Shown: in pieces, positions 25,156 through 43,544 of the stretch | How positions within the stretch are numbered: position 1 is the first letter of the stretch | Layout: every line of letters begins with the position of its first letter | Source: a virus | DNA: 43,544 nt | IMG/VR virus record: IMGVR_UViG_3300046009_010179 | Coordinates: 1-43,544 of that record | Direction: 5' to 3' (one strand) | Program-made: the position numbers and the translations under genes | The notes under the pieces: generated by a model | Databases searched by the model: none | Told to the model about the DNA's origin: nothing | Seen by the model: the letters and a program-made list of their open reading frames with translations, nothing else

Positions 25156-26064
25156 ATGTTTATTGCTAACTTATTTGAAAATTACATTACAGAGGCTGGA
25201 CCGCAACTGGTGGTACTATACCCAGGGCGTTTCCAGCCTTTTCATTTAGGGCACAGAGAAGTTTTTGCTAGCCTGCAAAATAAGTTTGGTAGAGACAGTG
25301 TTTTTATTGCTACTAGTAATAAAACAGAACTACCAAAAAGTCCATTTAATTTCAGCGATAAAACAGTATTCATGAATGCAGCTGGTATTTCTTCTGACCG
25401 CATATTAGAAGTATCAAGCCCTTACAAATTACCCGAACAATTTAATCCAGCCAACACTATTTTTATAGTGGCCGTGGGTGCACCTGATAGAGACAGACTC
25501 AAACCAGACTCTCTTAAAAAAGATGGCAATCCAAGTTATTTTAAAACATTTACTAATATATCTGAATGTACCACTGCTGATCAACATGGCTATGTGATCA
25601 TAGCAGAAGAAAGACACAAAGTTATAGAAATAAACGGCCAAAAAGTAGACGTAAGTCACGGCACACAAAGTAGAGCAGCTTGGAATAGTGTACGTAACGA
25701 TCCCAAACAAAGAAGTCAATTTTTGCTGCAAATGTATGGGCGAGATGATCCTGAACTAGGACGTATACTAGATAAAATTCCTACAAATGTGAACGAAGAG
25801 GCAGCGGGTGTTGGTGTAGTCAAAAATAGTAAAGATCCCAGATATGTCATGGCAACCATGGGCGATGATAACGACGTTACAGCAGCTACCTTGCCTCGAA
25901 TGATGGCAGGATATCACCTCACTAAAAAGTATAAAAAACTAAAAGAAGAAATTGATGTACTTAAAGAAAAATGGTCAGCCAAGTACAAACGCAGTATAAA
26001 TTGTAATAATCCACGTGGTTTCAGTCAAAGAGCACATTGCCAGGGCAGAAAGAAACATGGATGA
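25156..26064 (+). CDS. Nucleotidyltransferase with capsid-targeting-like N-terminus
   Basis: 302 residues. Residues 18-175 are a cytidylyltransferase/NMNAT-type Rossmann fold: YPGRFQPFHLGH with the HxGH nucleotide-activating motif (30-33), and SHGTQSRAAW (168-176) like the (S/T)xxxxR signature. It would adenylate or cytidylate a phosphorylated substrate; NMN, pantetheine and sugar phosphates are possible. It opens MFIANLFENYITEAG with ITE|A as a candidate head-protease site. The C-terminal ~30 residues are basic with two Cys (INCNNPRGFSQRAHCQGRKK), a tail I have seen on other marine T4-like proteins. I infer a packaged internal enzyme. Confidence 0.75.
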   Translation: MFIANLFENYITEAGPQLVVLYPGRFQPFHLGHREVFASLQNKFGRDSVFIATSNKTELPKSPFNFSDKTVFMNAAGISSDRILEVSSPYKLPEQFNPANTIFIVAVGAPDRDRLKPDSLKKDGNPSYFKTFTNISECTTADQHGYVIIAEERHKVIEINGQKVDVSHGTQSRAAWNSVRNDPKQRSQFLLQMYGRDDPELGRILDKIPTNVNEEAAGVGVVKNSKDPRYVMATMGDDNDVTAATLPRMMAGYHLTKKYKKLKEEIDVLKEKWSAKYKRSINCNNPRGFSQRAHCQGRKKHG

Positions 26065-26396: not shown

Positions 26397-26861
26397 ATGA
26401 AACCAACAGAATTTATAGTAGAAAATAGCGTAATCGCACAAGAAGCAGATGACATGCATCGCGACCATGAAGTGCAAATGGCCCGTAGTCAACTATATAG
26501 TACAGCACAGGCAGCTATCGAAATACACAAATTGCTTAAAAATGTAAGCGAAATGGAAGGCCTCGAAGGTTGGGTACAGACTAAAATTGCTATAGCAAGT
26601 GAGTATTTAGAAAGTGTTCGCGATTATTTAAAATACGAACAAGTTAGTCAAGATCAGGAAATGATGCCTTTTGCCGAAAGTGCCGCAGATTATGCTTTGG
26701 ACCAAATGTTAAACGAAACGGCCAGTGCTGGTGCAAGCGGTGCAGGCGGTATTGCTACCAGCATGGCAGGACCAGCTGGCAAACCCAGCACAGGTAAACC
26801 TAAAAAAATTGCCAATGCACACAAGGCTAAAAAAATTGCAGTAGGCAAAGGTGTTTACTAA
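26397..26861 (+). CDS. Putative internal/scaffold-type head protein
   Basis: 154 residues opening MKPTEFIVENSV, very like the T4 internal-protein targeting sequence (remembered as MKTYQEFIAE...), with IVE|N as the candidate cleavage. Residues ~20-95 are helical (QMARSQLYSTAQAAIEIHKLL, EGWVQTKIAIASEYLESV). After ~105 there is an Ala/Gly-rich hinge, then a basic Lys-rich tail (KPKKIANAHKAKKIAVGK) that could bind DNA. I recognise this layout from marine T4-like phages without a defined function. A role inside the head is inferred. Confidence 0.6.
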   Translation: MKPTEFIVENSVIAQEADDMHRDHEVQMARSQLYSTAQAAIEIHKLLKNVSEMEGLEGWVQTKIAIASEYLESVRDYLKYEQVSQDQEMMPFAESAADYALDQMLNETASAGASGAGGIATSMAGPAGKPSTGKPKKIANAHKAKKIAVGKGVY

Positions 26862-29482: not shown

Positions 29483-30048
29483 GATATAGACAAATTTTAG
29501 AAGCTTGTTGGGACGGATATCAACAACGTGGCATGAAGAAAAAAGGTGACCGCCAGGTACCTAACTGTGTTAAAATGAGCGAACAAGAACTAGAAGAAGA
29601 TCTTAAAAAATGGTTTCGTGAAAAATGGGTTAGATTTGGCCCAGATGGTAAAATTCGCGGAGAGTGTGGCGGTAGAGACAGCGGCGAAGGCAAACCAAAA
29701 TGTTTGCCTGCCAGTAAAGCACATGCACTAGGTAAAAAAGGTCGTTCCAGTAGTGCAGCAAAAAAACGCAGAGAAGATCCCAATCCAGAACGTCGTGGAC
29801 CAGCAAAGAATGTGGCTACCAAGACACGTTCAATGAAAGAACAAATACCTGAACTAAAGCCGGACAATCAGCCGGAACCAACACCACTCAAAAAAGGTTT
29901 GAATGTTTTAGGTAACATTTTTACAGCAGGTAAACTTCTGTCAGATCCAAAAGCTCTAGCACATCAAGAAGTATTAAATGTGATTGACCCTAACAGACAA
30001 AATCAAAGTATTATTAGACGCATGCAGAAAGATGAACCTCAACAATAA
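29479..30048 (+). CDS. Basic internal-type protein
   Basis: 189 residues opening MRYRQILEACWDGYQQRG (ILE|A candidate site). A Cys/Lys/Arg-rich body follows: MKKKGDRQVPNCVKM, DLKKWFREKWVRFGPDGKI, GECGGRDSGEGKPKCLPASKAHALGKKG, KKRREDPNPERRGPAKNV. Strong positive charge and paired Cys suggest nucleic-acid binding, perhaps with DNA in the head. I have seen this C-rich basic module in other marine phage proteins. The ATG overlaps the previous stop. Confidence 0.6.
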   Translation: MRYRQILEACWDGYQQRGMKKKGDRQVPNCVKMSEQELEEDLKKWFREKWVRFGPDGKIRGECGGRDSGEGKPKCLPASKAHALGKKGRSSSAAKKRREDPNPERRGPAKNVATKTRSMKEQIPELKPDNQPEPTPLKKGLNVLGNIFTAGKLLSDPKALAHQEVLNVIDPNRQNQSIIRRMQKDEPQQ

Positions 30049-30060
30049 TGTATTCAATCA

Positions 30061-30717
30061 ATGTCATTTTTAATAGCTAATACACCACCAATACACAGTT
30101 ACATCAGGCGTGAATTTTTATATGACTTTGAACGGGGACATGGAGAATATGAACCCTGTATATGGATCACCATTAAAAGTATAAGAGGACAAGCATTTAG
30201 AATTGAGGCTTACTTACCAAACTATGGCGCACTTTATGACAAGCTACCTTTACATGCGTTTGTGTCACGCACAGAAAATCTTGACCCAGAAAATTTTTTA
30301 CCTTTAGATACTCTTCAAATTTGGGATTGCTTTGACTATGACATCGCAATCATACAAAAGGCTTTTCTAAAAAATCTCAGTTGCAAGTTTTATGCCAAAG
30401 ATAAACAAATGTATTCTGGTAATTATTTGTTTACAGTAGATAACGCACACCCAGATCAAAATACTATAGACACCGGATACAGTGAATGGCCCGAAGACCA
30501 TAAAAGTTTCAATTTTATTGAATTGGATAATGGACAGTATGCAGCGCAACCTAACAATAGATGTTTATTTTATGATGCGGCAAGCAATCCTAGTACGATG
30601 AAGTTTCCTGACTTCAAAGTTTGTACTAGAAAGTATGTGGTAGAACAAAATCCCAAATGGCGTTTGGGCGATACTGATACAGTAATGTATGAAAAATCAA
30701 ATTTAACTGGAGAATAA
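30061..30717 (+). CDS. Conserved-type T4-like phage protein, unknown function
   Basis: 218 residues, clearly globular and aromatic-rich: IHSYIRREFLYDFERGHGEY, CIWITIKSIRGQAFRIEAYL, TLQIWDCFDYDIAIIQKAFL, then a NGQYAAQPNNRCLFYDA motif. I recognise it as a protein widespread in marine T4-like phages, usually of unknown function; no catalytic motif visible. Precedes a 49-residue basic protein by one base. Virion or metabolic role cannot be decided. Confidence 0.7.
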   Translation: MSFLIANTPPIHSYIRREFLYDFERGHGEYEPCIWITIKSIRGQAFRIEAYLPNYGALYDKLPLHAFVSRTENLDPENFLPLDTLQIWDCFDYDIAIIQKAFLKNLSCKFYAKDKQMYSGNYLFTVDNAHPDQNTIDTGYSEWPEDHKSFNFIELDNGQYAAQPNNRCLFYDAASNPSTMKFPDFKVCTRKYVVEQNPKWRLGDTDTVMYEKSNLTGE

Positions 30718-30718
30718 A

Positions 30719-30868
30719 ATGGCAAAAGCAAAAGGTACAGCATCTGGAAAACCAGCAATTGATCATGTAGTCAAGCGTACACACATTGGCGGACTACGAC
30801 CAAAAACCAGCTCAATGAACAAAAGCTATAAACGAAGCTTCAAACCAAATAGAGGTCAAGGTAGGTAA
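30719..30868 (+). CDS. Small basic protein (49 residues)
   Basis: Below usual length cut-offs. MAKAKGTASGKPAIDHVVKR, then THIGGLRPKTSSMNKSYKRS and FKPNRGQGR: very Lys/Arg-rich with Gly, resembling small conserved T4-like phage proteins; likely binds nucleic acid. GGAG ribosome site six bases before ATG 30719. Its 3' end overlaps the oppositely oriented radical SAM gene by 13 bp. Confidence 0.8.
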   Translation: MAKAKGTASGKPAIDHVVKRTHIGGLRPKTSSMNKSYKRSFKPNRGQGR

Positions 30869-33258
30869 AGAGGATAATCAAATAGTTTGTTAAAACTTTT
30901 ATTATAAGCTTTATCTGTATCTTTTGTAAATTGAACGAACCGTTTAAAATTTTCGGGGTCACTATCTTGTTCTAAATTTTTAATTAGAAATCTACAAAGT
31001 TCTTTAAACTTAAATCCATTATGGTCAGGAACTTCTTCAAAAATTTTAAGCGCATTTTGTAATTGCAACAAAGCTCTTGTTTTTAATTCAGGTGGTAGCA
31101 CTCTTGGATTTAAATACGTTGGTCCATCAACAGCACGAATAGCAAAAAAAATCTCCAATTTTCGCTTGAACAAATTTGCCAGAAATCTAGCTAAATTTTC
31201 AATACCTAAGATAGTATAAGCCGAAAGGGCTGTATTAACTACAACTTCTACATTTGGTAGCTCTATCATTGAATAAACATTTTTTTCCACTTGAGTCCAT
31301 ATTGTACCTTCTCTCTGGTATTCTGCTATTTCGCCGGTGGCATCGATACTGAATGTTAAATGAAGGTATTTAAATTGTTTTAGTTTATCTAAAATGTAAG
31401 GGTTAACAGTGCTACAATTAGTAGTAAACATTAATTCTATGTTTTTATCATATTGCTTAGAGATAATGTAATCTAACAAATCATAATTTGTTTTAATTAG
31501 CATAGGTTCGCCACCTGCCAAATTGAGTTTATTTAAATTACTAAGTAGATTTAAAATTTCGTTGTAATTAGCATCAGTGGTGTGATTGTGAGCTTTCATA
31601 CTATCGGTCAATTGATACCATACTTTTAATTCGTTGTTGTTTTCAACTACATTAACTATACTACTACTATCATTTGGTCCGCACATTCTACAACTAAAAT
31701 TACATGTATTGCTTGCTCTGAATTCTAAAAATTTGGTTCCGATATTTGTATTAACAGATAAATTCTCCTTTTTCAATGGATATTTAGAATAAACCATTGT
31801 TCTAATACTAGAGTATCCTTGATCTTCTAATCGCCAACAATCAGAACAACTACTTGGTCTCTTTCCTTCAAGTAAATCTTGTTTAAGATTTTTTATAAAT
31901 TCACTTGATAAAAAATCTGATGGTGAACCTTGTATTTCTACCTTATTAGCACAGCATACTCTTGCACTATTTTGACTATAATACAAACTTAACCATGGAG
32001 CAGAGCATATTACCTGTTCTTCCTTGCTAATATTAAAATCATCATTTTTAAATACAAGGTCATGTAAATTTTTTATTGATTGATTTGCAATTGGTATATG
32101 ATGTTCAATTACTCTATGTAGATAACCAAAATATTTGTAAAATTGCGTGCTCAGCCCAGATGTAGGAGTAAAAATTACTTTATTTTTGATTTGTGAATTC
32201 AAAAAATATGTTTGATCAAAAACATAAACTCTCGAGTCTATATATTCACTGAGGTCAATTAATCTTGAGTTTAACGTAATTTCAAAATCTTCAACAATTA
32301 ATGGAACATTATTAGAATCATCGTCCTCAAATTGGAATGTTACAGACTCTTTAACTGCTATTTGTAATGCATCATCAACTGACAGATTCAAATTATTGTT
32401 TACTTTTGTGTCTTGCTTGGGTTGAACTGAATTTGATTTTTGTTGAAATATAAGATGAAAATTTGGAATTATGCTGCTGAGAATATTTTTTTGTACAACT
32501 TCATATAAGTTTACTGTATTGCCCTTGGGATAAAATTTCCATTGATTAGTATCTACATTATATATCTTGATAAAATCAGCTGTAGTAGCATAAAACAAAG
32601 TTAAGATATTGTTGAAATTATAAATTATCCCGGCTGCATTACCGCCAGAGGGGTCTATGCTATATTCCTTATTCCAATTCACTACAAGTTGTAGTAAGTC
32701 ATCTAATGTCAAAACAATGTTTTTATCAGCTGAGCTATCTTGAAATTTAGACAATAATATAAAGTTATTGTCGTTTAATTTGTTTGCCCAGCCACCATTT
32801 GGATTTTCTTCTATTGATTTAATTATTAAATTTGGATCAACCCCTTTTTTTACATATTCGTCGATCATATCAACATTTACACCGCCTGAATTATACAGGG
32901 GAGTGGATTGCAATTTTTCTTTAAGATACTGACTTAGTAATTTTGGTAGTGGTTTTACATCTACATCAAACTGTTGAATGTTAATTTTTGGTGGTTCAAA
33001 GAGTACTTCGTCACTTAAATTATTATGAACTTCTATGGTAGTATTTTTAACAGGTATTTTCTTACCTGTTTTTTCGAATAAAAGTAGAACATAATCAGAA
33101 TTAATTATTTTTTCATAATCTTGTACTAAAGGTATAAAAACTATTTCTGTTACATTAGTAATCTCTCTATTTCTCTTGCTTTTTAAGCATACAAAATCAT
33201 TGTTTTGATAGTTAATACTTTGAATTAATTTTTCTACTTTTTCTACGTAATTTTTCAT
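30856..33258 (-). CDS. Radical SAM protein 1 with long unknown N-terminal extension
   Basis: 800 residues, about twice the size of the other six. Residues 1-~410 match nothing I know (mixed alpha/beta, with a possible helix around 183-196). From ~415 it is a twitch-type radical SAM enzyme: C418SAPW, C435C436 and C471SDC474 of an auxiliary cluster region, CNFSCRMC core (519/523/526), LAGGEPML (580-587), and the C-terminal tail with YNKSFNKLF. It should generate a 5'-deoxyadenosyl radical; substrate unknown. Sole leftward gene here, with its own late-type octamer upstream. Extension may recognise the target. Confidence 0.85.
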   Translation of the reverse strand: MKNYVEKVEKLIQSINYQNNDFVCLKSKRNREITNVTEIVFIPLVQDYEKIINSDYVLLLFEKTGKKIPVKNTTIEVHNNLSDEVLFEPPKINIQQFDVDVKPLPKLLSQYLKEKLQSTPLYNSGGVNVDMIDEYVKKGVDPNLIIKSIEENPNGGWANKLNDNNFILLSKFQDSSADKNIVLTLDDLLQLVVNWNKEYSIDPSGGNAAGIIYNFNNILTLFYATTADFIKIYNVDTNQWKFYPKGNTVNLYEVVQKNILSSIIPNFHLIFQQKSNSVQPKQDTKVNNNLNLSVDDALQIAVKESVTFQFEDDDSNNVPLIVEDFEITLNSRLIDLSEYIDSRVYVFDQTYFLNSQIKNKVIFTPTSGLSTQFYKYFGYLHRVIEHHIPIANQSIKNLHDLVFKNDDFNISKEEQVICSAPWLSLYYSQNSARVCCANKVEIQGSPSDFLSSEFIKNLKQDLLEGKRPSSCSDCWRLEDQGYSSIRTMVYSKYPLKKENLSVNTNIGTKFLEFRASNTCNFSCRMCGPNDSSSIVNVVENNNELKVWYQLTDSMKAHNHTTDANYNEILNLLSNLNKLNLAGGEPMLIKTNYDLLDYIISKQYDKNIELMFTTNCSTVNPYILDKLKQFKYLHLTFSIDATGEIAEYQREGTIWTQVEKNVYSMIELPNVEVVVNTALSAYTILGIENLARFLANLFKRKLEIFFAIRAVDGPTYLNPRVLPPELKTRALLQLQNALKIFEEVPDHNGFKFKELCRFLIKNLEQDSDPENFKRFVQFTKDTDKAYNKSFNKLFDYPLYLP

Positions 33259-33287
33259 AGTAATTTATGAATTTTGAGTCACAAATC

Positions 33288-33295
33288 TATTTATG
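33288..33295 (-). promoter_or_regulatory. Minus-strand late-promoter-like octamer CATAAATA
   Basis: Complement of 33288-33295 is CATAAATA, 29 bp before the radical SAM 1 start codon (33258). It lies back-to-back with a rightward octamer at 33316, so the 86-bp gap carries two divergent candidates. No ORF or tRNA in the gap. Confidence 0.5.
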
Positions 33296-33315
33296 GATTT
33301 GACCTTAGGCTTTGG

Positions 33316-33323
33316 ACTAAATA
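33316..33323 (+). promoter_or_regulatory. Late-promoter-like octamer ACTAAATA
   Basis: ACTAAATA followed by C lies 21 bp before the Dps ATG (33345), matching the NNTAAATA core. An AGG (33333-33335) between may serve as a ribosome site. Confidence 0.45.
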
Positions 33324-33344
33324 CTTCAATATAGGAATATGTAA

Positions 33345-33779
33345 ATGGAATCGCTACACAAAGCCCTTAAAATTGCTTTTGCAAGTGAATATGCTTTTTA
33401 TTTAAAAGCACATTATTTTCATTGGAACGTGGAAGGCCCCGGCTTTCCTCAATTACACGAGCTATTTGGTAAAATATACGAAGAAGTATATGGCAGTATA
33501 GATACATTTGCTGAAGAAATACGGGCAACTGGAACCTATACACCCGGTTCGTTTACACGTTTTAGCATTTTAAGTCAAATTGAAGACGAAGTAGAAGTGC
33601 CCGCTGCAGAACTAATGTTAGCTGAACTTCTTCAAGATAGCGAACGCATGGAAGAAATGTTCCGTATTGTGTTTAGAGCAGCAGAAGAACTTGGACTACA
33701 CGGACTAAGCGATTTCTTAGCTAGTCGCCAAGATGCACACGCAAAACATTCTTGGATGTTACGTTCAACCCTTAAATAA
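33345..33779 (+). CDS. dps: Dps-like ferritin
   Basis: 144 residues with the intersubunit ferroxidase ligands of Dps: FHWNVEGPGF (H26), QLHELF (H38), SIDTFAEEIR (D53, E57). Dps dodecamers oxidise and store iron and can bind DNA, protecting it from hydroxyl radicals. Among several [4Fe-4S]-cluster radical SAM genes it might manage iron or peroxide; inferred only. Rightward unit starts here and continues into radical SAM 2 after 21 bp. Confidence 0.88.
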   Translation: MESLHKALKIAFASEYAFYLKAHYFHWNVEGPGFPQLHELFGKIYEEVYGSIDTFAEEIRATGTYTPGSFTRFSILSQIEDEVEVPAAELMLAELLQDSERMEEMFRIVFRAAEELGLHGLSDFLASRQDAHAKHSWMLRSTLK

Positions 33780-33800
33780 AGTTTTATTCAAAAACTTTTT

Positions 33801-34955
33801 ATGATAACACTATCAAGAGACATTGGGCGCAACTTTTGTTATGCGCCCTGGACTAATCTTCACATCAACCCACAAGGTGTTTACAAACTTTGCTGTGCAG
33901 GACAAGTTCCAATTGGAAATTTAATTACAACACCAATTACAGAAGTTTTAAATTCCTCAAAGATAATCGAAATAAAACAAGCCATACTGGACAACAAGTA
34001 TCATAAAAATTGTGAAATTTGTGTGAATCAGGAAAAACACAGCGATTCAAGTGAAAGAGATTGGTACAACGATATAGCCGAAAATCAACCTATTCAATTG
34101 AATGCTATAGAAGAAACACATTTACAAAATTTAGATATAAGATGGTCTAACACTTGCAACTTAAGTTGTGTTTATTGTGGCGATGAAGCAAGTAGTCAAT
34201 GGGCTTCTTTAAAAAATCTTAAACCTAACAGAATAGATTATTCAAATACTATGCCAGATATTTTAAAATTTATCGAGGCAAATAAAAAAACTTTAAAAAA
34301 TTTAGCACTGCTAGGCGGTGAACCACTTCTTCAAAAAGAAAATGAACAACTTTTAGATGTAATAGACAAAAACGTACATATAAACGTTATTACAAACTTG
34401 AGCGTTCCTTTAGAAAATAATAAAATTGTTAAAAAATTATTAGAAAAAAACAATGTAGTATGGGACATTAGCTTTGAAACTATTAATGAAAAATTTGAGT
34501 ATGTAAGACATGGCGGTAGTTGGGAATTAATGACAAAAAATATTAGATACCTACAAGCAGTTGCTAAAAACCAACCAGGACACCTAATAGGTATTACAGG
34601 ACAATTTAGTGTTTATAATGCATTAGACTTATCAGAAGTCAACAGGTTTTTCTACGAAAATAATTTTCCTCAACCAAGATGGAACGAACTCACTTACCCA
34701 ACAATTTTATCTGTCGCTAATTTACCAAAACATTTTATAGATAAAAGTGTTATAGAATTAGAAAATTCTGTACAATTTATTAAATGGCCAAAACAACAAA
34801 AATTTTTGTTAGATATAGCAAACAATCTGAAAAATTTAACAGTTAAAACACAAAACTGTAAGCCATTAATTGATTGGCATATAAACCAAGAAAATACTTA
34901 TTGGCCTAACTTTAAATATAAGTTTGTTGATTTATGGCCGGAGTATTTAGAATGA
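33801..34955 (+). CDS. Radical SAM protein 2 (twitch-type)
   Basis: 384 residues. N-terminal cysteine region: C13YAPW, K-L-CC (31-32), C71EIC74. Core CNLSCVYC (C119, C123, C126), then GDEASSQW, LLGGEPLL, and FEYVRHGGSWELMTKNIRYL as the conserved post-core helix. The twitch region should bind a second Fe-S cluster. Start ATG 33801 with weak ribosome site. ATGA overlap with the alpha/beta hydrolase implies coupled expression. Substrate unknown. Confidence 0.88.
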   Translation: MITLSRDIGRNFCYAPWTNLHINPQGVYKLCCAGQVPIGNLITTPITEVLNSSKIIEIKQAILDNKYHKNCEICVNQEKHSDSSERDWYNDIAENQPIQLNAIEETHLQNLDIRWSNTCNLSCVYCGDEASSQWASLKNLKPNRIDYSNTMPDILKFIEANKKTLKNLALLGGEPLLQKENEQLLDVIDKNVHINVITNLSVPLENNKIVKKLLEKNNVVWDISFETINEKFEYVRHGGSWELMTKNIRYLQAVAKNQPGHLIGITGQFSVYNALDLSEVNRFFYENNFPQPRWNELTYPTILSVANLPKHFIDKSVIELENSVQFIKWPKQQKFLLDIANNLKNLTVKTQNCKPLIDWHINQENTYWPNFKYKFVDLWPEYLE

Positions 34956-35533
34956 AAATAGTTTATGTTCACGGTGCCAGCGCAACCAGTGAAAGTTTTA
35001 ATTATATTAGACAAAGTATTGGTTCAGACACTGATATAGTTATTAACTACGACAGTAGAAATGGTTTTGAAAAAAACTTAGAACACATGAAAGAGCTTCT
35101 AATAGAAGAAGAAAAGATGTTTTTTGTTGCACATAGTCTTGGTGGAATATATTGTTTACATTTAGCAGATATTTTACAAAATAAAGTAGTAGGAGCAGTT
35201 ACTCTAAGTACCCCATATGGTGGGGCTGAAATAGCAGATGTTGCAAAATATTTTTTGCCTTACAGTAGATTACTTAAAGACATTGGTCCTAATTCATACG
35301 CAATGAAACATTCACGAAATATCAAGAAATTGCCTCCATGGACTAATGTAGTTACAACCAAAGGAAGTGCACCGTGGGTGCCTGGTAAAAATGATGGTGT
35401 TGTGACTATTGCCAGTCAAATGTGTCGTGATGACATAATGGAATTGATCGAACTAGATTACAATCATTACGAAGTTGTACTAAGTGAAAGAGTAATTGCT
35501 ATTATCAAAGAAAGATTGCCAAATGTTAGGTGA
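34952..35533 (+). CDS. Alpha/beta-hydrolase, lipase-like
   Basis: 193 residues from ATG 34952 (overlapping the previous TGA). The nucleophile elbow AHSLGG has S62 and is preceded by VYVHGAS, the oxyanion region. Candidate acid D148 (PGKNDGVV) and histidine H172 (YNHYEVV) complete a Ser-Asp-His triad. Resembles PGAP1/lipase or esterase families. Could deacylate or hydrolyse an ester in a product made with radical SAM 2; no evidence on substrate. Overlaps the small membrane gene by 11 bp. Confidence 0.78.
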   Translation: MKIVYVHGASATSESFNYIRQSIGSDTDIVINYDSRNGFEKNLEHMKELLIEEEKMFFVAHSLGGIYCLHLADILQNKVVGAVTLSTPYGGAEIADVAKYFLPYSRLLKDIGPNSYAMKHSRNIKKLPPWTNVVTTKGSAPWVPGKNDGVVTIASQMCRDDIMELIELDYNHYEVVLSERVIAIIKERLPNVR

Positions 35534-35717
35534 GTTACCGTACATGATAATATGGGGATTCTTTAGCGCAATGGGTTGGATGGGCGCAAATTACGCAATG
35601 GAAAAATATTTTCCGGAAAAACTAAAGCAAGAAACTCAAGTATGCAGTGAATGGCGTGAAGAAATTGATGAAAATGGCAAAACAACAAGAACTAGAAGTT
35701 GTGAACCAAAAAAATAA
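35523..35717 (+). CDS. Small single-pass membrane protein
   Basis: 64 residues from ATG 35523, chosen over a start at 35496 because the longer form runs through the hydrolase end. One membrane helix (ELPYMIIWGFFSAMGWMGANY) then a short soluble tail with two cysteines (TQVCSEWREE, TRTRSCEPKK), which may form a disulphide. Function unknown. Followed by the GC-rich leader and radical SAM 3. Confidence 0.6.
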   Translation: MLGELPYMIIWGFFSAMGWMGANYAMEKYFPEKLKQETQVCSEWREEIDENGKTTRTRSCEPKK

Positions 35718-35719
35718 GA

Positions 35720-35781
35720 ACACCCTTAGGACCGGTGTACGCGGCTGCTGCGTCAACTAAAGGAGTCGTGCCCTGCAGTTG
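35720..35781 (+). promoter_or_regulatory. GC-rich structured leader of radical SAM 3
   Basis: The 77-bp gap 35718-35794 is about 57% G+C by hand count, far above the AT-rich surroundings. Three tandem hairpins: ACACC/GGTGT (35720-35724/35734-35738), ACGCG/TGCGT (35739-35743/35749-35753), and CAACT/AGTTG (35754-35758/35777-35781), followed by GGAAGTGAG next to the ATG at 35795. No ORF. A cis-regulatory RNA is plausible; I could not match it to a known class. Confidence 0.5.
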
Positions 35782-35794
35782 GAAGTGAGCATCT

Positions 35795-36892
35795 ATGAAA
35801 AATTACTGTCCAGATTTATTTCAAAATCTTTTTATTCAAAAAACTAACGCCAACCAAGTAGAACTAGGTTTTTGCTGTGTTAGTAAATTAAGTCCTCCTT
35901 TGGACAAAATTGATTTTGGTGATAATTATTTAGAAAATCAGAGACAAAAATATCTACTAACAAACACTTTGCCAGAAAGTTGTTCGCAATGTGTTCATGA
36001 CGAATCAGCTAACAGCACTTCTAGAAGGTTACAGCAACTAGAACACAACAGAAATCATAATTTTAGCACTACAAATAATCTTAGATTCCTGCAATATAAT
36101 TGTGACAATATTTGTAATCTAAAATGTATTGCATGCAGTAGTCTATACAGCAGCTCATGGATTGATGATGAAATAAAGTTAGGGGTTAGAAAACATCAAA
36201 ATATAAAACCAACAAAAAATAATCATTTATTGTTTGACTTTGATATAGAAGGAATACAACAGATATATTTCAATGGCGGTGAACCATTATTAACAAAGGA
36301 TCATGTTAATGTTCTAAGTTATATGGCAAATAAAATCAATCCATGTAATATTCATGTATTGTACAATACAAATGGCACAATTCTACCAAGCAATGAAGTT
36401 TTACGTTTATGGGAAAAGTTTGCAAGCGTTACTCTTATTGCTAGTATAGATGCTATACAATCTCAATTTGAATATATAAGATATCCCGGCAATTGGGAAT
36501 CTGTGCAAAATAATTTAAAAGAATACAAAAAATTTGCTACACTTAACATAGGAGCAAACATTGGAGTTCATAATATTATGTATTTTGGCGAGTTATTTGA
36601 TTATGCATTAGAAAATGAAATACAGTTTAACTTCCAAAGCGACACACAAGGTAAGCTATCATTAAAAAATTTACCTGTGCATCTAAAATCTTCGGTCAGA
36701 GACAATATAGTAAGCGTAAAAGAATCACCAACTAAAACAATACTTTTAAATACACTTAACGCCGATCATAACTGCGATTTATCCTGGATCAATTACTTAA
36801 ACAATTTAGATAAAATAAGAAACACCAATTGGAAACACAGTTTATCTTCATTATATCAACTTGATCCATCTTTTTTCAATAGCCATGAATAA
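35795..36892 (+). CDS. Radical SAM protein 3 (twitch-type)
   Basis: 365 residues. N-terminal C5PDLF, FCC (27-28) and C63SQC66; core CNLKCIAC (107/111/114), then SSLYSSSW, FNGGEPLL, FEYIRYPGNWESVQNNL and a C-terminal RNTNWKHSLSSLY tail. The spacing is that of the radical SAM family members next door, but the identity is low. Expected [4Fe-4S] cleavage of SAM. Overlaps radical SAM 4 by 8 bp (ATG at 36885). Confidence 0.87.
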   Translation: MKNYCPDLFQNLFIQKTNANQVELGFCCVSKLSPPLDKIDFGDNYLENQRQKYLLTNTLPESCSQCVHDESANSTSRRLQQLEHNRNHNFSTTNNLRFLQYNCDNICNLKCIACSSLYSSSWIDDEIKLGVRKHQNIKPTKNNHLLFDFDIEGIQQIYFNGGEPLLTKDHVNVLSYMANKINPCNIHVLYNTNGTILPSNEVLRLWEKFASVTLIASIDAIQSQFEYIRYPGNWESVQNNLKEYKKFATLNIGANIGVHNIMYFGELFDYALENEIQFNFQSDTQGKLSLKNLPVHLKSSVRDNIVSVKESPTKTILLNTLNADHNCDLSWINYLNNLDKIRNTNWKHSLSSLYQLDPSFFNSHE

Positions 36893-38144
36893 ACAATTTC
36901 CAATTAAGTCCGATACAGCTTGTCTTTTAAAATGGTCTTGGTCTACAGTTTTTTTAAGTCTAGCTAGCTCAAGTAGCTGCCATAGATGTGATCATGACAC
37001 ATTTCGAGTAGGCGAATTTCATACATTTCACAATACACCACGTAAAGTGTTAAGCAGAGAAATGATGCGCAAAGGTGAATGGCCTCAAGCCGGGTGTCAA
37101 TATTGCCAAACAATTGAACAGTCAGGCGGAATGAGTGACCGTCAATATCAGCTTATCAATGGACATTATGAATATGCTACTGAATTAGATCAAGATTCAA
37201 GTCTGAATGAAGTTACACCAACTATACTTGAAATGTATTTTACTAATGTGTGTAATATGAGTTGTCTTTATTGTGGTCCACATTTTAGCAGCAAGTGGGA
37301 AGAAGAAAATCGTAAGTTTGGACTTTTTGAACGTGGTACTGTTAAACTGGTACCAGAAGATACTAGAATGACTTCTAACTATAATGAATTGTTAGAAGAA
37401 TTTTGGATATGGTTCAAACAAAATCATTTAAAGTTAAGGTACTTTCATGTGTTAGGTGGCGAACCTTTTTATCAAAAAGAATTAGAATTGTGTTTAGATT
37501 TTTTTGACGCCAATCCAAGTCCGGATTTAACTTTAAACTTAGTGAGTAATTTAAAAGTAGAACCTCGACGTTTTGCTCGTACTATAGATCGAATGATGTC
37601 GTTGAAGGATGCAGGAAAACTAAAAAGAGTTCAAATTACAGGCAGTTTAGACTGTTGGGGGCCACAACAAGAATATGTAAGATGGGGTTTGGATCTCAAT
37701 GAGTATACTACCAACATGGAGTATATGCTCACAAAGGACATTACATTGTGCATCAATGCTGCGGTAAATGCTTTGTCAATAAAAACAATGCCAGAGTATT
37801 TTGAAAAAATAAATTACTGGAATCAATTGAAAAAAGATCTAGGATTCAAATGGGATTATATTAATTGGAGTTGTACTAGTGTTCCTAGCCCAGGGCACAT
37901 GAAACCGGACATTTTTGGACCCGAAGTATTTCGTGATGACATAGAACGAATCTTAAGTGTTATGCCAGAAGACAACGAACAGCAAATTAATATCAAAGAA
38001 CACTTTAAAGGTATAGCTGCAAAAATACTGAGTAGACCTAAAAACCCAGAAGCTATAGAAAATTTAAAAGTATATCTCGACGAAATAGATCGTAGACGAA
38101 ATACCAATTGGAAAATTTTATTTCCATGGTTGTTGGATCAATAG
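36885..38144 (+). CDS. Radical SAM protein 4 (twitch-type)
   Basis: 419 residues from ATG 36885; an upstream TTG at 36861 is rejected because 36885 gives an 8-bp overlap with the upstream stop. N-terminal cysteines C13, SSCHRCDHDTF (C32, C35) and C71QYC74, core CNMSCLYC (123/127/130), GPHFSSKW, LGGEPFY, QEYVRWGLDLNEYTTNM, and C-terminal RRRNTNWKILFPWL. The first cluster region is shifted relative to the siblings (CHRC for CC), so it may ligate differently. Converges with radical SAM 5, overlapping 7 bp. Confidence 0.86.
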   Translation: MNKQFPIKSDTACLLKWSWSTVFLSLASSSSCHRCDHDTFRVGEFHTFHNTPRKVLSREMMRKGEWPQAGCQYCQTIEQSGGMSDRQYQLINGHYEYATELDQDSSLNEVTPTILEMYFTNVCNMSCLYCGPHFSSKWEEENRKFGLFERGTVKLVPEDTRMTSNYNELLEEFWIWFKQNHLKLRYFHVLGGEPFYQKELELCLDFFDANPSPDLTLNLVSNLKVEPRRFARTIDRMMSLKDAGKLKRVQITGSLDCWGPQQEYVRWGLDLNEYTTNMEYMLTKDITLCINAAVNALSIKTMPEYFEKINYWNQLKKDLGFKWDYINWSCTSVPSPGHMKPDIFGPEVFRDDIERILSVMPEDNEQQINIKEHFKGIAAKILSRPKNPEAIENLKVYLDEIDRRRNTNWKILFPWLLDQ

Positions 38145-39139
38145 TTATACAACCAAGGTGGATTTAGTTTTACAAATTTTGGATCTTTAATAATCTGCAA
38201 AAATCTGTAATGCAAATCATGTTGCGGATTATGCACAGCTTGGGCATCAAAATCGTGAAAACTTCCCCAATCCTGTAACAAAGTAAAGTCGCAACTGTCT
38301 ATTTCATTATCATCACAGAATTCAATAAATGTTAAAACGTCTTCTAAATTTTCACGTTGAATAACAAAGCTGGCGAAGATTTTAAATTTATATGTTTCTT
38401 TTAAAATATTTAGATAATCTATATTATCCAGTAGTGTGTTCCATTTAGCAGGACGTCTTACTCGCTCATAGGTTGGTGCGGTAGCCGCATCAATACTTAA
38501 TTTTATGATTTTTAAATTTGGTAAAATAGACAAATCGTTTATGTGACGTTTTATTAGTGTGCCATTTGATCTAATTTCATAGTTAACATTTTCATTAAAT
38601 TCTGATTTTAAAAAATTTGTATATATAGGACTAGCAAATGGTTCGCCGTTGCTACCTATTAAAATATTAATTTTTTTATCTGGTTTTTGATCTATCCAAG
38701 ATTGCACACGACCCAACCATGATTGTCTTTCTTGTACATAATCATTGTCATCTTTGAATATCATGCCTGAACGACATGACGGACATTGCAAGTTGCAAGA
38801 ATCGTCTATTCCTATCTGTATTTCATAATCAAAGGTTATGTTTTTAATCTGTGCTGCTACTCCGCAATGCTTAGTATCACAATATTCGTATTCGCCTTTA
38901 CTAATAGAGTTTTGTACCATTTGTGCAACAGGACTTGAAAAAATTTCATCAAAACTATAAAAATCTAACACATGGCCCACAGAATAGGGAACCCAGGCAT
39001 CACACCCGCAAACAAATATTCTACCCAATCTGTCAATGTGAACTTCCTTCCAAGGCCAATTACATCTATTAGGAGCAATGTTTTTAATACTAGGTAAATT
39101 TCGAGTATTTCTATGAAACACTAAGTCATGTTCAGTCAT
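38138..39139 (-). CDS. Radical SAM protein 5 (leftward, divergent member)
   Basis: 333 residues from ATG 39139; a TTG at 39163 is less likely. N-terminal CNWPWKEVH and VCGCDAW, plus CDTKHC (twitch-like), core CNLQCPSC (115/119/122), followed by RSGMIFKD rather than SSxW, GSNGEPFA, and YERVRRPAKWNTLLDNI. It lacks the RNxxWKxxFP tail. Its first codons overlap the oxygenase stop by 8 bp (ATGACTGA), so the oxygenase is upstream and cotranscribed. The GEP motif (SNGEP) differs from the usual GGEP. Confidence 0.85.
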   Translation of the reverse strand: MTEHDLVFHRNTRNLPSIKNIAPNRCNWPWKEVHIDRLGRIFVCGCDAWVPYSVGHVLDFYSFDEIFSSPVAQMVQNSISKGEYEYCDTKHCGVAAQIKNITFDYEIQIGIDDSCNLQCPSCRSGMIFKDDNDYVQERQSWLGRVQSWIDQKPDKKINILIGSNGEPFASPIYTNFLKSEFNENVNYEIRSNGTLIKRHINDLSILPNLKIIKLSIDAATAPTYERVRRPAKWNTLLDNIDYLNILKETYKFKIFASFVIQRENLEDVLTFIEFCDDNEIDSCDFTLLQDWGSFHDFDAQAVHNPQHDLHYRFLQIIKDPKFVKLNPPWLYNY

Positions 39140-39755
39140 CTGGATGTTTGATTGTAAGCCCAACTAAAATACTGTATCTGTCAGAATCTGATTTATTCAT
39201 TCCAACATGAAGATTTGGTCCATCATTAACATGTAACCAACCGTCACCAAAATTGGTAGTCAATCTAACTTCATTTTCTTGTTTATTATCCCAATAAAAA
39301 TACGTTGACAAGTTTGGATCATCTTTTTCGGTTAGATATATCATACCGGTTGCAATTAATCTTCTATAATCAGTATGCGGTTTAAGATACCAACCGGGCG
39401 TATCTTTTTGATAATAAGCATGCCAATCTGCAAATCGTTTCATTTTATTTAAATCCATGCCCCATAGTCCTTCAAACTGTGGACTGTATGAGTACAAAGA
39501 TTCTAATGCCAATTGGTGTACTTCGGAACTTTGAATGTAATTGATAATCGCCTGTAATTTTTTACTTTTTGGATTTTGATTTTGAATCAACCAACGATAA
39601 TAAAATGCATTATTTTCTTGACCAACATGCTGCTTTTCCCCTTGCGGTACCCAAACTTCGTTATTGAGTTCGTTTGTAATGGTTGAATAATCATAATCCA
39701 ATGTAAGTTTTATGTCAGATAGGAAAAATCTGTTCTCTGTAAATTGAAGGCGCAT
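39132..39755 (-). CDS. 2OG-Fe(II) oxygenase
   Basis: 207 residues with the facial triad HTD (H127, D129) and H183 (GPNLHVG) and the 2-oxoglutarate-binding R193 (SDSDRYSILVGL), spread as in the prolyl-4-hydroxylase-like group. Uses O2, Fe(II) and 2-oxoglutarate to hydroxylate a substrate, here unknown. Directly coupled to radical SAM 5, so one substrate handled in sequence is a reasonable guess, although an O2-using and an O2-sensitive enzyme in one operon is notable. A late octamer (complement of 39760-39767, AATAAATA) is 5 bp upstream of its ATG. Confidence 0.82.
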   Translation of the reverse strand: MRLQFTENRFFLSDIKLTLDYDYSTITNELNNEVWVPQGEKQHVGQENNAFYYRWLIQNQNPKSKKLQAIINYIQSSEVHQLALESLYSYSPQFEGLWGMDLNKMKRFADWHAYYQKDTPGWYLKPHTDYRRLIATGMIYLTEKDDPNLSTYFYWDNKQENEVRLTTNFGDGWLHVNDGPNLHVGMNKSDSDRYSILVGLTIKHPDD

Positions 39756-39759
39756 TGAA

Positions 39760-39767
39760 TATTTATT
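39760..39767 (-). promoter_or_regulatory. Minus-strand octamer AATAAATA
   Basis: Complement of 39760-39767 reads AATAAATA, 5 bp before the oxygenase ATG (39755). Very short leader if used; may be chance. Confidence 0.25.
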
Positions 39768-39803
39768 GGGTTAAAATGAATGAATTTAAGTTTGTATATT
39801 TGC

Positions 39804-39822
39804 ATTAAATAGTATATACTAT
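39804..39822 (+). promoter_or_regulatory. Late octamer and palindrome before dsbA
   Basis: ATTAAATA (39804-39811) overlaps a perfect 14-bp palindrome ATAGTATATACTAT (39809-39822), 23 bp before the dsbA ATG and just upstream of AGGAG (39834-39838). The palindrome could bind a dimeric regulator; TATACT (39815-39820) could also be a -10 box with a weak -35 at 39791 (TTTGTA, 18-bp spacer). Confidence 0.4.
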
Positions 39823-39844
39823 CAATTTTAATCAGGAGAATCAA

Positions 39845-40105
39845 ATGGGTTCAAGAATGTTCAGTGCAGAACAAAAAGCAAAACTTACTCAAATTATCAA
39901 CGAAGGCATGACAATCATGCAAGAAGTAGAAGATCTAAATGCCGGGTTGTCTGATACAATTAAAGCTGTAGCTGAAGAAATGGAAATTAAACCATCTATA
40001 CTTAAAAAAGCTATCCGTGTTGCATTTAAATCTAAACTAGGTGACGAAAATGCCGACCACGAGGAACTGAATACCATTCTAGAAACGGTCGGAAAAACTT
40101 TATGA
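39845..40105 (+). CDS. dsbA: DsbA-like dsDNA-binding protein
   Basis: 86 residues, helical with SAEQKAKLTQIINEGMTIMQEVEDLNAGLSDT and MEIKPSILKKAIRVAFKSKLG. T4 DsbA is an 89-residue dsDNA-binding protein that stimulates late transcription; marine T4-like phages have a same-sized protein of this pattern next to gp43. The identification rests on size, pattern and context, so is moderate. ATGA overlap with radical SAM 6. Confidence 0.6.
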   Translation: MGSRMFSAEQKAKLTQIINEGMTIMQEVEDLNAGLSDTIKAVAEEMEIKPSILKKAIRVAFKSKLGDENADHEELNTILETVGKTL

Positions 40106-41274
40106 TAGATACTCGGTGTATATTAGCCGAGACCAGTTTAAGCTTGCATAATGGCGGGCACGTAAGTATATGCAACGGAAGTAGGCAAATGTTTGCCGAC
40201 GGCAACGGCGATCTAATTACCTTGGACAAGCATTCATTGGAACATGCATGGTCAAGTCCTACTAGAAAAGAAATTGTGCGGTCTTTAGCCAACAATATCA
40301 AACATGAAAATTGTTTAGATTGTTGGCTTAAAGAAGAAGCAGGTTTTCCTAGCATGCGAAAAATTCATAATCAGAATCTGGCAATAGATAGTCGCTTGGA
40401 TTCACAACCACAAGTTTTGATTTTAAAACCTGGTAACGTTTGTAATTTAGGCTGTAGGCATTGTGATTCTTCTGTGAGTAGCGGATGGTATCAGGATGAT
40501 TTTCAATCAAACCATAAAGATTTAGATTACGAAGAGTATTTAGAAAAATTTGAAGTAACTAGAAATAGTTATTCAATTGATAATGCCAATTGGAATGTAA
40601 TAAAAGATTGGAGTAAAAATGTAGTTTATTGGGATTTGTATGGTGCTGAGCCATTGCTTATTAAACCATTATTAGATGCATTGTATGAACCAGTTCAATC
40701 AGGTACTGCCGATAAACAAAGTATTCATATAAACACTAACGGTACGATTTGGCGAGAAGAATTTGTAGATTTATTTAAAAATTTTAAATCAGTTAATCTT
40801 GACATAAGTGTTGATGGCATCAATGAGCGATTTGATTATTTACGTTATCCAGCTAAGTTCAATGATGTATTAAATAATATATTAAAATATCAAAAGTTAA
40901 GCAATAATATTCCATCAATTAAGACATCAGTTACAGTTACAGTAAGTATTTTTAATGTATTGGATCTTGATAAAATTTTAAAGTTCTTTAACGATTTGCA
41001 AATTAACTGTAGCTTCAATCTCTTGCATAATCCAGAATATTATAATCTGCGTATCTTACCTACCACTGCAAAGTTGGCAGTTAAAAATCATTTACTTAAA
41101 AAATTTAATCATCCACTTAAAAGACCCATAATGGAGTTCGTTGATCTCGAAATAGATACAGAGAATTCAATAGAAAATTTTTTTGCAATTACAAATAAAA
41201 TAGATAATCTTCGTAACCAATCTTTTAAAAACACATTTCCTGAAATGTTTAACCTTATAAAAATGCATGAATGA
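40102..41274 (+). CDS. Radical SAM protein 6 (twitch-type)
   Basis: 390 residues. N-terminal TRCILAE (C6), SICNGS (C24, single cysteine in place of CC), C71LDC74, core CNLGCRHC (114/118/121), DSSVSSGWYQDD, and LYGAEPLL (a departure from GGEP), FDYLRYPAKFNDVLNNI, and C-terminal RNQSFKNTFPEMF. Inserted in the dsbA-gp43 stretch with ATGA overlaps both sides. The reduced first cluster set and GAEP suggest this member may have a different or weaker cofactor chemistry. Confidence 0.86.
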   Translation: MIDTRCILAETSLSLHNGGHVSICNGSRQMFADGNGDLITLDKHSLEHAWSSPTRKEIVRSLANNIKHENCLDCWLKEEAGFPSMRKIHNQNLAIDSRLDSQPQVLILKPGNVCNLGCRHCDSSVSSGWYQDDFQSNHKDLDYEEYLEKFEVTRNSYSIDNANWNVIKDWSKNVVYWDLYGAEPLLIKPLLDALYEPVQSGTADKQSIHINTNGTIWREEFVDLFKNFKSVNLDISVDGINERFDYLRYPAKFNDVLNNILKYQKLSNNIPSIKTSVTVTVSIFNVLDLDKILKFFNDLQINCSFNLLHNPEYYNLRILPTTAKLAVKNHLLKKFNHPLKRPIMEFVDLEIDTENSIENFFAITNKIDNLRNQSFKNTFPEMFNLIKMHE

Positions 41275-41554
41275 TACAATAGTAAAAATATTTGATTGGA
41301 TAGCCGAAGATTGGCACAGTAATAAGATAAGATTTTTTATTGAAATACTTGCATGGGCATGTAGTGTTGGTTGTGCATTAACTTTTGCACTCACAGTCCC
41401 AAATCCTCCTTTATTTTGGTTATATCCGTTCTGGATAGGCGGTTGTTTATTATATTCTTGGGCCGCATGGACCAGAAAAAGTTTTGGTATGCTATTGAAT
41501 TATCTTTTAATCACTGGCATAGATTGCATAGGATTAATTAGATTACTTGTATGA
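41267..41554 (+). CDS. Small three-helix membrane protein
   Basis: 95 residues: about three membrane segments (~22-43, ~47-65, ~73-92) with short loops and NPPLFWLYPFW / WAAWTRKSFG motifs that I have seen in T4-like phages. Not a holin by its longer loops and gene context; a transporter-like fragment is possible. Overlaps both radical SAM 6 (8 bp) and radical SAM 7 (ATGA), so produced together with them. Could anchor a modified product or the enzymes at the membrane. Confidence 0.6.
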   Translation: MNDTIVKIFDWIAEDWHSNKIRFFIEILAWACSVGCALTFALTVPNPPLFWLYPFWIGGCLLYSWAAWTRKSFGMLLNYLLITGIDCIGLIRLLV

Positions 41555-42834
41555 GTCAAACACTTTGCCCTTTACCCTTTAGCCACCAACATGTACAGCC
41601 CAATGGTGAAATAAGATTCTGTTGTGCTTCGCGACCGGATTCAAATAAAAGATTAGACAACGAAACATACAATGTCAATCAAGATACGCTTAAAGATGCA
41701 TGGAATAGTGAATCTATAAAAAAATTAAGATTAGAGTTAATCAACGGAGAAACTCCAGAAGCTTGCCAATATTGTTGGGAAAGAGAGAGCGAAGACCATA
41801 CTAAAGGTACCAGTATGCGAATTGATTTCTTAGATAGGATTCCTATTAACACAATTTCTGACAGAATTGAATTTGCTAAAAACAATGATGGATATCTAAA
41901 TGATTATCCTTTTGATTTTCAAATCATGTCAGGCAATCTTTGTAATTTAAGTTGTAAAATGTGTACTCCGCAGTACAGTACGTCTTGGTCTAAATTTTAC
42001 TCCAATCAAGGAGTATCTAATTTTAATGAAATCAAGTTTTCAAAAAACTATCAACCAAACAGTGTAGAAGAAAAACATTTTAACAAAACTTATGATTGGC
42101 CTAACACCAATCCTTTAAACACAATTCTTAAAGATTATTTTGATGATATTCGCTCTATCTTTTTGATTGGTGGAGAACCTACTATAATTGATGGTACGTT
42201 TGATTTTTTACAACACATGATAGATTTAAAGTATCAAAATAAATTATATCCATGGATAAGCACAAACTGTACCAACATCAATCAAAGACTTATAAACTTG
42301 CTAGATCAATTTAATCGTACAGGTATGAACTTAAGTTTGGATGGTATGGATGACATAGCTTACCTTCAAAGAACTCCGTCAAATTGGAATCAGATACAAA
42401 CAAACGTTGACAAATTAATGGATTGGGCGCATACAAGGAAAAAAACAAAATTTACAAACCTTAATGTGCATTCTGTAGTCACTAGCCTTAATTTACATCA
42501 TATAGGTAGTTTTTGGAAATATTTAATTGATAGGTATTCAAACAAAGATTTTACAATAAGTTTTATGCCTGTTCTCGAACAATACGACAACTTTAGTATA
42601 TCAATTGTACCATCAGAACAAGCAAAAAATATTTTACAGGATACTAAAAATCTTGCCTTATCTATTCCTGACAAATATAAAACCGTTTTTGAAAAACTAA
42701 TTTACACTATAGAGACTACTGAGTTTAGCCCAAGTTACGAAGCTATACAGTACCAGTTAGATCAGTTACAAAACTTTCATCCTGACAAAGAAATCAAAAA
42801 AATCTATAGCATTTATTACAATGATAGTTTATAA
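41551..42834 (+). CDS. Radical SAM protein 7 (twitch-type)
   Basis: 427 residues. N-terminal C6PLPFSHQHVQPNGEIRFCC (24-25), C72QYC75, core CNLSCKMC (131/135/138), then TPQYSTSW, LIGGEPTI, IAYLQRTPSNWNQIQTNV. Closest to the classic twitch pattern C-PW/PF ... PNGE ... CC. The C-terminus departs from the RNxxWKxxFP tail. Ends 6 bp before the gp43 ATG, so cotranscribed with the polymerase start or nearby. Substrate unknown. Confidence 0.87.
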   Translation: MSQTLCPLPFSHQHVQPNGEIRFCCASRPDSNKRLDNETYNVNQDTLKDAWNSESIKKLRLELINGETPEACQYCWERESEDHTKGTSMRIDFLDRIPINTISDRIEFAKNNDGYLNDYPFDFQIMSGNLCNLSCKMCTPQYSTSWSKFYSNQGVSNFNEIKFSKNYQPNSVEEKHFNKTYDWPNTNPLNTILKDYFDDIRSIFLIGGEPTIIDGTFDFLQHMIDLKYQNKLYPWISTNCTNINQRLINLLDQFNRTGMNLSLDGMDDIAYLQRTPSNWNQIQTNVDKLMDWAHTRKKTKFTNLNVHSVVTSLNLHHIGSFWKYLIDRYSNKDFTISFMPVLEQYDNFSISIVPSEQAKNILQDTKNLALSIPDKYKTVFEKLIYTIETTEFSPSYEAIQYQLDQLQNFHPDKEIKKIYSIYYNDSL

Positions 42835-42840
42835 TTAACT

Positions 42841-43544
42841 ATGAGTTATGTTGACGCACTATATGATCGTAACCAGGATCGTATCCACATTGTGGAACGT
42901 GTTCGGGGAGAACGCATATACAAAGAATATCCAGCCAATTACATCTTTTACTATGATGATTCACGTGGTAAGTTCCGTACTGTCTACGGTACTCCTGTTG
43001 CTAGGTTTTCAAGTCGTTCTAATAAGGAATTTCAAAAAGAACTACGTATTAATAGCAACAAACGGCTTTGGGAATCGGATATCAATCCTGTATTCAGATG
43101 TCTCGAAGAACACTATCTGGGCGTAGAATCACCAAAATTACAAACTGCGTTTTTTGACATTGAGGTCGATTTTGATCCAGTAAGAGGATTCAGTAGACCC
43201 GAAGATCCGTTTAATCCAATTACTAGTATTTCAGTTTATCTTGACTGGTTAGATAAATTAGTTACCTTGGTCGTTCCTCCTAAAAGTTATAGTTGGGCAA
43301 CTGCTCAAGAAATCTGCGACCGGTATGACAATTGTTTTTTATTTGAACGTGAAGAGGATTTATTAAACACTTTTTTAGATCTTATTGATGACGCTGATAT
43401 ACTGAGTGGGTGGAACTCAGAAGGCTTTGATATTCCATACATGGTCATGCGTATAACCAGAGTATTAAACAAAGACGATACACGTAGATTTTGTCTATGG
43501 GGGCAACTGCCTAAACAGCGAACATTTGAACGATTTGGTGCCGA
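42841..43544 (+). CDS. 43: DNA polymerase gp43-like, family B, 3'-truncated by window edge
   Basis: Open through the right edge; 234 codons visible. N-terminal domain (MSYVDALYDRNQDRIHIVER), then the exonuclease with Exo I AFFDIEVDFD (DIE, residues ~105-107) and Exo II GWNSEGFDIPYM. Both match T4 gp43-type B-family polymerases of marine phages, so 3'-5' proofreading is intact as far as visible. The catalytic polymerase part is outside. A different-frame ORF at 42848-43126 in the same DNA is a shadow. Follows radical SAM 7 with a 6-bp gap. Confidence 0.93.
   Translation, partial: MSYVDALYDRNQDRIHIVERVRGERIYKEYPANYIFYYDDSRGKFRTVYGTPVARFSSRSNKEFQKELRINSNKRLWESDINPVFRCLEEHYLGVESPKLQTAFFDIEVDFDPVRGFSRPEDPFNPITSISVYLDWLDKLVTLVVPPKSYSWATAQEICDRYDNCFLFEREEDLLNTFLDLIDDADILSGWNSEGFDIPYMVMRITRVLNKDDTRRFCLWGQLPKQRTFERFGA

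Follow-up and report, generated by a model that had tools for sequence, protein, structure and literature searches.

Seven divergent radical SAM genes accreted among backbone genes beside the DNA polymerase of a T4-related phage, and their possible role in glycan tailoring

Why does a phage carry seven radical S-adenosylmethionine (SAM) genes beside its DNA polymerase, how did they get there, and on what do their products act? The question is raised by the IMG/VR record IMGVR_UViG_3300046009_010179, the whole of which (43,544 bases) is the window analyzed here; IMG/VR contigs are fragments. The list of open reading frames (ORFs) contained seven intact radical SAM ORFs within positions 30856-42834, each with a CxxxCxxC motif, and a six-frame search of the record recovered the same seven places. 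We refer to them as P1 to P7. Our answer is that the array arose by stepwise accretion of old paralogs that were afterwards kept under purifying selection; radical tailoring of a glycan is our best hypothesis for what the enzymes do.

Six of the seven proteins exceeded the curated whole-protein cut-off (170 bits) of the NCBIfam model NF033640 (N_Twi_rSAM, twitch domain-containing radical SAM protein), with scores of 202-285 bits over nearly their full length. They are P1 (30856-33258, minus strand, 285 bits) and, all on the plus strand, P2 (33801-34955, 224 bits), P3 (35795-36892, 202 bits), P4 (36885-38144, 228 bits, with a listed TTG start at 36861), P6 (40102-41274, 260 bits) and P7 (41551-42834, 242 bits). 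P1 differs from the model in an extra N-terminal region of 405 amino acids, for which we found no relative or family; its radical SAM domain covers residues ~407-798. P5 (38138-39163, minus strand) reached only 57.8 bits. It scored above the Pfam SPASM cut-off (22.8 against 21.5 bits) and slightly under that of Pfam Radical_SAM (28.9 against 29.5 bits, E = 1.6e-6). Judged from its sequence, P5 is a distant SPASM/radical SAM relative, and of the seven its place in the family is the least certain. The SPASM cut-off was also passed by P2, which matched Radical_SAM as well, and by P7; P6 remained below it (18.0 bits), and P1, P3 and P4 were not listed. The name of the NF033640 model gives no function.

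The alignment of the seven proteins, in which identity to the first sequence was 19-28%, has several columns that are invariant in all of them: auxiliary cysteines, CN..C..C, the E-P pair in [GN][GA]EP, and an S, an R and an N. CxxxCxxC and a GGE-like SAM-site motif were likewise present in 7/7. A sequence-only reading of this DNA had described seven genes with CxxxCxxC and an upstream cysteine set, six of them with (S/T)SxW-like residues after the core. Both descriptions held: (S/T)SxW is found in P2, P3, P4, P6 and P7, with SSSI in P1 and nothing similar in P5. The RNxxWKxxFP-like tail that it saw in four proteins is real, but it is loose, being clear in P3, P4 and P6. Its expectation that all seven would fall in one twitch family held for six, with P5 a distant relative. 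As six proteins pass the NF033640 cut-off, P5 connects to Pfam SPASM and invariant columns are shared, the observation of seven radical SAM genes was right, and the motif and profile evidence is well past chance. The reading would have failed if most proteins lacked the SAM pocket or came from unrelated families; the motifs are in all seven, and six belong to NF033640.

In all seven proteins the auxiliary cysteines are N-terminal, unlike in canonical SPASM/twitch enzymes, whose auxiliary domain is C-terminal to the barrel. Columns 6-76 of the family profile, at its N-terminal end, matched the C-terminal twitch of BtrN (residues 184-257). Therefore, the auxiliary domain has been permuted to the front. 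Structure was modeled for P6 alone (AlphaFold2, 101 further sequences in the alignment). The model had a radical SAM fold with a mean predicted local distance difference test score (pLDDT) of 93.3 and a predicted template modeling score of 0.90, and it matched SAM-bound enzymes with a Foldseek probability of 1.00. Its nearest solved folds were radical SAM enzymes (anSME, SkfB and a sactipeptide thioether enzyme), several of them bound to SAM or S-adenosylhomocysteine. The fold of P6 and, for the other six proteins, the aligned motifs indicate that the SAM site is retained. By VIA Z, the closest folds were viperin (12.8), BlsE (12.7) and DesII (12.3). The sugar-acting enzymes BtrN, BlsE and DesII thus resemble the window family in their twitch (BtrN) or core fold (BlsE and DesII). 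They differ in having a C-terminal twitch, and identity in the fold match was 15-16%.

The surroundings of the array show how the genes came to lie together. The phage is T4-related. Its DNA polymerase has many relatives, some on contigs of 320-374 kb, and the longest of these are jumbo contigs of up to 374 kb. Relatives share a backbone around the polymerase that comprises the genes at 29479 and 30061, a Dps/ferritin-like gene (33345-33779, Pfam Ferritin 1e-19), an alpha/beta hydrolase-like gene (34934-35533, weak Pfam match), a small membrane-type gene (35496-35717), a conserved 86-aa gene (39845-40105, in most polymerase relatives at 49-95% identity), a 95-aa membrane-type gene (41267-41554) and the family-B DNA polymerase itself (42841-43544, of which the window includes just the 5' part). 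All those given with full coordinates are on the plus strand. The seven radical SAM genes occupy slots between these backbone genes. Because backbone genes intervene and both strands are in use, a single operon for all seven was rejected. The hydrolase and membrane proteins, which the sequence-only reading had counted with the enzymes, are backbone genes also present, like the Dps gene, in relatives without radical SAM genes.

Most relatives have nothing of this size in the same slots. The slot that holds P6 (39845-41267) was without genes of at least 100 aa in 44/53 loci, and the slot that holds P7, between the 95-aa membrane-type gene and the polymerase, in 47/58; both counts take in the near-identical contig L008. 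Other occupants, by eye, were SGNH-like, glycosyltransferase-like and methyltransferase-like genes. P6 is overlapped by a few bases by its neighbor on each side, and in relatives without P6 these two backbone genes abut. The array genes have a GC content of 29-35%, whereas the backbone genes in this region have 34-41%.

None of 80 loci of polymerase relatives had more than one family gene, and the window therefore looked exceptional among them. This impression was tempered by sister contigs. The 35-kb contig L411 has P2, P3, P4, P5 with an adjoining oxygenase gene, P6 and P7 in the same order and on the same strands, with P1 absent. L412 shows P2 to P6 before the contig ends, and L413 begins within P3 and runs to the polymerase. 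Identities in the sisters were 70/55/54% for P3, 89/82/83% for P4, 82/74/73% for P5 and 68/64/63% for the oxygenase. Of the seven, P2 is retained most widely: it has the Dps-hydrolase slot in the sister contigs too and stands there alone in many further relatives. Another locus (L512) holds P2-, P6- and P7-like genes, the last 42% identical and in the same slot. The dN/dS ratios of the array genes were 0.03-0.21 where estimable, which are rough values as many synonymous estimates were saturated; that of P4 against L411 was 0.034, with dS near saturation.

An approximately unbiased (AU) test rejected the grouping of P1-P4, P6 and P7 in one clade (difference of 566 log units, P = 2.6e-5); it was based on a quick tree with long branches and left P5 out. 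Tandem duplication in this phage was thereby rejected for these six genes. Since the six paralogs do not form one clade, they represent old, separate acquisitions. The earlier description of the genes as old paralogs rather than recent copies thus agrees with the AU test. The suggestion that all seven serve one pathway held in part. The genes are separate insertions; in its favor, the sisters preserve their order, and they are also weakly linked to a five-enzyme operon described below.

The oxygenase gene (39132-39755, minus strand) overlaps P5 by 32 bp, is co-conserved with it and travels alongside it in the sister contigs. Its product is a putative 2-oxoglutarate (2OG)/Fe(II) oxygenase by its HxD...H...R pattern, and H127xD129, H183 and R193 were invariant in three sequences. 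It had no Pfam match and no related solved structure by sequence, and its match to PHROG 3254 was weak.

Arrays of this kind are not confined to the window and its sisters. A motif scan of IMG/VR gave at least 120 stretches, and all 50 of the 50 records probed hold family members, 1 to 16 each; these records were chosen by motif, so the figure is not a prevalence. Among the matches listed, arrays of 5-16 such genes recur, and one 36.9-kb contig has 15 members. One paper reports 12 radical SAM genes in the T4-like genome TARA_ERS488813_N000010 (PMC5332604). The likeness is in the many radical SAM genes of one T4-like genome; in the part covered here, the account consists of a gene count with an Fe-S reading, without families, arrangement or slots. 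The claim that so many genes are highly unusual in a phage therefore found no support, and uniqueness among phages was rejected. KVP40-type and other Vibrio phages have one to a few members. In pelagimyophages, radical SAM genes form variable cassettes in the host-recognition, receptor-binding cluster (PMC7029224), although the window's genes adjoin the DNA polymerase, not fibers. One phage protein of 903 aa (L179:6721-9432) contains two fused family domains.

The bacterial motif scan was noisy and most of its loci were not family, so true members were chosen by profile. NF033640 gave 19-42 matches per genome (E up to 0.001) in two Bdellovibrionota genomes (G065 and G071), Gammaproteobacteria MED685 (G066), a further bacterium (G067) and Pacearchaeota (G076); many were clustered, and the lower-scoring ones may be other radical SAM proteins. 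We found no assigned function for this large family of phages and bacteria in the open-licence text of PubMed Central.

What the enzymes may act on is suggested by their relatives' neighbors. At least 10 phage loci, including L161, L168-L170, L174-L179 and L185, have most or all of five members, A to E, in the same order, with orthologs mostly 40-77% identical. At several of them this A-E operon is preceded by a tail-fiber-type gene, CL5 (related to the window gene at 2245), then CL3, CL4 and two CL1 genes, an arrangement that fits the pelagimyophage cassettes. For CL1, PHROG gave no match and Pfam none that was meaningful; its model (pLDDT 92.7) was GT8-like (GT, glycosyltransferase), with glycogenin and LgtC nearest. 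Among 150 neighbors, Pfam matches included carbamoyltransferases, UDP-glucose dehydrogenases, DegT and epimerases. GT8-like, carbamoyltransferase, UDP-glucose dehydrogenase and CL9 genes were present in array loci, whereas the 892 kb around the polymerase had none; DegT and epimerase genes showed no significant excess in that comparison.

Similar company was found in more distant relatives. Vibrio phage K566 (OZ196521.1) has five genes that the profile assigns to the family. GT8 and GT4 genes are interspersed among them (two GT8 genes and two weak glycosyltransferase matches). This cluster differs from the window in that its best matches are 22-29% identical and that its genes lie near the lipid-A genes PagP (by annotation) and LpxC (Pfam E = 1.3e-40), not near the polymerase. 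Another member, encoded on a plasmid of Methylomagnum ishizawai and carrying the annotation twitch radical SAM, belongs to a polysaccharide-like cluster with a GT2, two GT4, UbiA, an ATP-binding cassette exporter, a methyltransferase and a PhyH-type dioxygenase. Bacterial clusters of the family contain GT2, GDSL, TauD, sulfotransferase and carbamoyltransferase genes, plus housekeeping genes. CL9-type proteins (L280:2515-3432, L411:10894-11772, L412:10901-11782 and L174:13543-14622) are encoded both at operon loci and on two of the sister contigs. They keep the motifs LNK-H-FF, H-E-LE and GKTL and had no Pfam family match. The CL9-type gene of the sisters matched the operon CL9 weakly (one-sequence mode of hmmsearch; phmmer 2.7e-4), which links the sister arrays weakly to the A-E operon. 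The CL9-type protein is a possible partner or substrate of the enzymes.

Because the family adjoins sugar-transferring genes in other phages and in bacteria, the enzymes probably contribute to making or modifying unusual sugars on surfaces. Our best hypothesis, held with roughly even confidence, is that they tailor a glycan by radical chemistry; substrate, reaction and site of action are what we infer from gene neighborhoods. Each enzyme would cleave SAM reductively at the [4Fe-4S] cluster of CxxxCxxC, with the N-terminal twitch cluster as an auxiliary center, and would remove a single hydrogen atom at a defined position of an intermediate, either a sugar or a glycan. The outcome might be oxidation, deamination, decarboxylation, epimerization or coupling, in the manner of BtrN, BlsE or DesII, and the coupled enzyme, the putative 2OG oxygenase, would contribute another oxidation. 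Glycosyltransferases encoded by the host or outside the fragment would cooperate with them in tailoring an unusual glycan of the tail fiber or virion, or of the host surface. More tentatively, giant T4-related phages and some bacteria may run radical SAM assembly lines. Several non-redundant N-terminal-twitch enzymes would then work one after another, alongside GT8-type glycosyltransferases, to produce a heavily tailored glycan at the phage fiber or the host surface, and the window would hold a second, separately accreted set. An A-E operon could lie in the part of this genome to the left of the record.

Several observations weigh against glycan tailoring. The array slots in the window hold no glycosyltransferase, and the nearest such genes noticed, a glycosyltransferase-like gene at 23705 and an FkbM methyltransferase gene at 11806, are 6-19 kb away. 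The window enzymes are 24-28% identical at best to the A-E members and not orthologous to them, so their function may differ. The 892-kb control compares fiber-side with replication regions, and the enrichment is therefore partly regional. Adjacency to tail-fiber genes is also compatible with protein modification, and the best sequence matches of the SAM core are SkfB, anSME and TigE, of which SkfB and anSME are peptide or protein enzymes.

These last two points lead to the main rival, in which the enzymes modify side chains of tail fibers or of a peptide resembling ribosomally synthesized and post-translationally modified ones, leaving cross-links or epimerized or oxidized residues. Many peptide-maturase models also match weakly, and SkfB and anSME have a similar fold, although the domain order is permuted. 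The sequence-only reading had proposed a look for small peptides nearby. No precursor peptide was seen in the intergenic stretches of the array, though one could be encoded farther away, and the lone small ORF, a basic one of 49 aa (MAKAKGTASGKPAIDHVVKRTH..., 30719-30868), occurs in L201 too, where the array is missing. The neighbors in phage, plasmid and chromosome transfer or modify sugars. We consider peptide or protein modification less likely than glycan tailoring, but more likely than the other alternatives.

Support of host metabolism or of a cofactor, that is, auxiliary Fe-S or tetrapyrrole metabolism as surveys of auxiliary metabolic genes have suggested, is improbable. Viral radical SAM genes have been filed under Fe-S metabolism (PMC5332604), and 261 'ahbD' instances were reported in PMC9301287, which itself terms the inference rather speculative. 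However, the AhbD, MoaA, NirJ and PqqE models scored far under their cut-offs (for AhbD, TIGR04545, at most 28 bits among the matches listed, against 500), and numerous divergent copies per genome are ill-suited to one cofactor step. Slightly less probable still, the genes could be selfish passengers, spread among intergenic slots by phage recombination in the style of homing endonucleases, from which the phage gains little. The patchy presence of the genes and their clean, single insertion at several slots fit this idea, but gene order is retained and selection is purifying; no endonuclease was noticed among the array ORFs, although no dedicated endonuclease search was made. Antiviral or counter-defense nucleotide chemistry of the viperin type is very improbable, because the top VIA Z of viperin is tied with those of BlsE and DesII and the profile match is weak (NF038283, at most 44.6 bits against a cut-off of 180).

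Some features of the region lie outside these questions. The non-coding stretch at 35718-35794, between two genes, resembles the matching stretch of L201 by eye; there was no Rfam match here or anywhere in the window. Five loci (L213, L220, L221, L225 and L229) have a similar leader of ~62-67 bases ahead of the polymerase start. The backbone protein at 30061-30717 matched PHROG 3704 (302 bits), named ferredoxin, a tentative name; it had no Pfam match. A 701-aa protein (27377-29482) carries GVAEG four times, and over its final ~50 residues it matches proteins of cyanophages at 72-82%. Several neighbors in this region (25156-26064, 26397-26861 and 29479-30048) start with short leaders that appear to resemble T4 capsid-targeting leaders.

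Viral radical SAM genes have been filed as metabolic genes by surveys. With its gene order conserved and GT8-like genes next to tail fibers, the A-E operon gives a reading that can be tested, and Vibrio phage K566, a named phage, offers a route to the substrate. If the enzymes do act on glycans, radical chemistry would be added to the means by which phages modify their own surface or that of their hosts.

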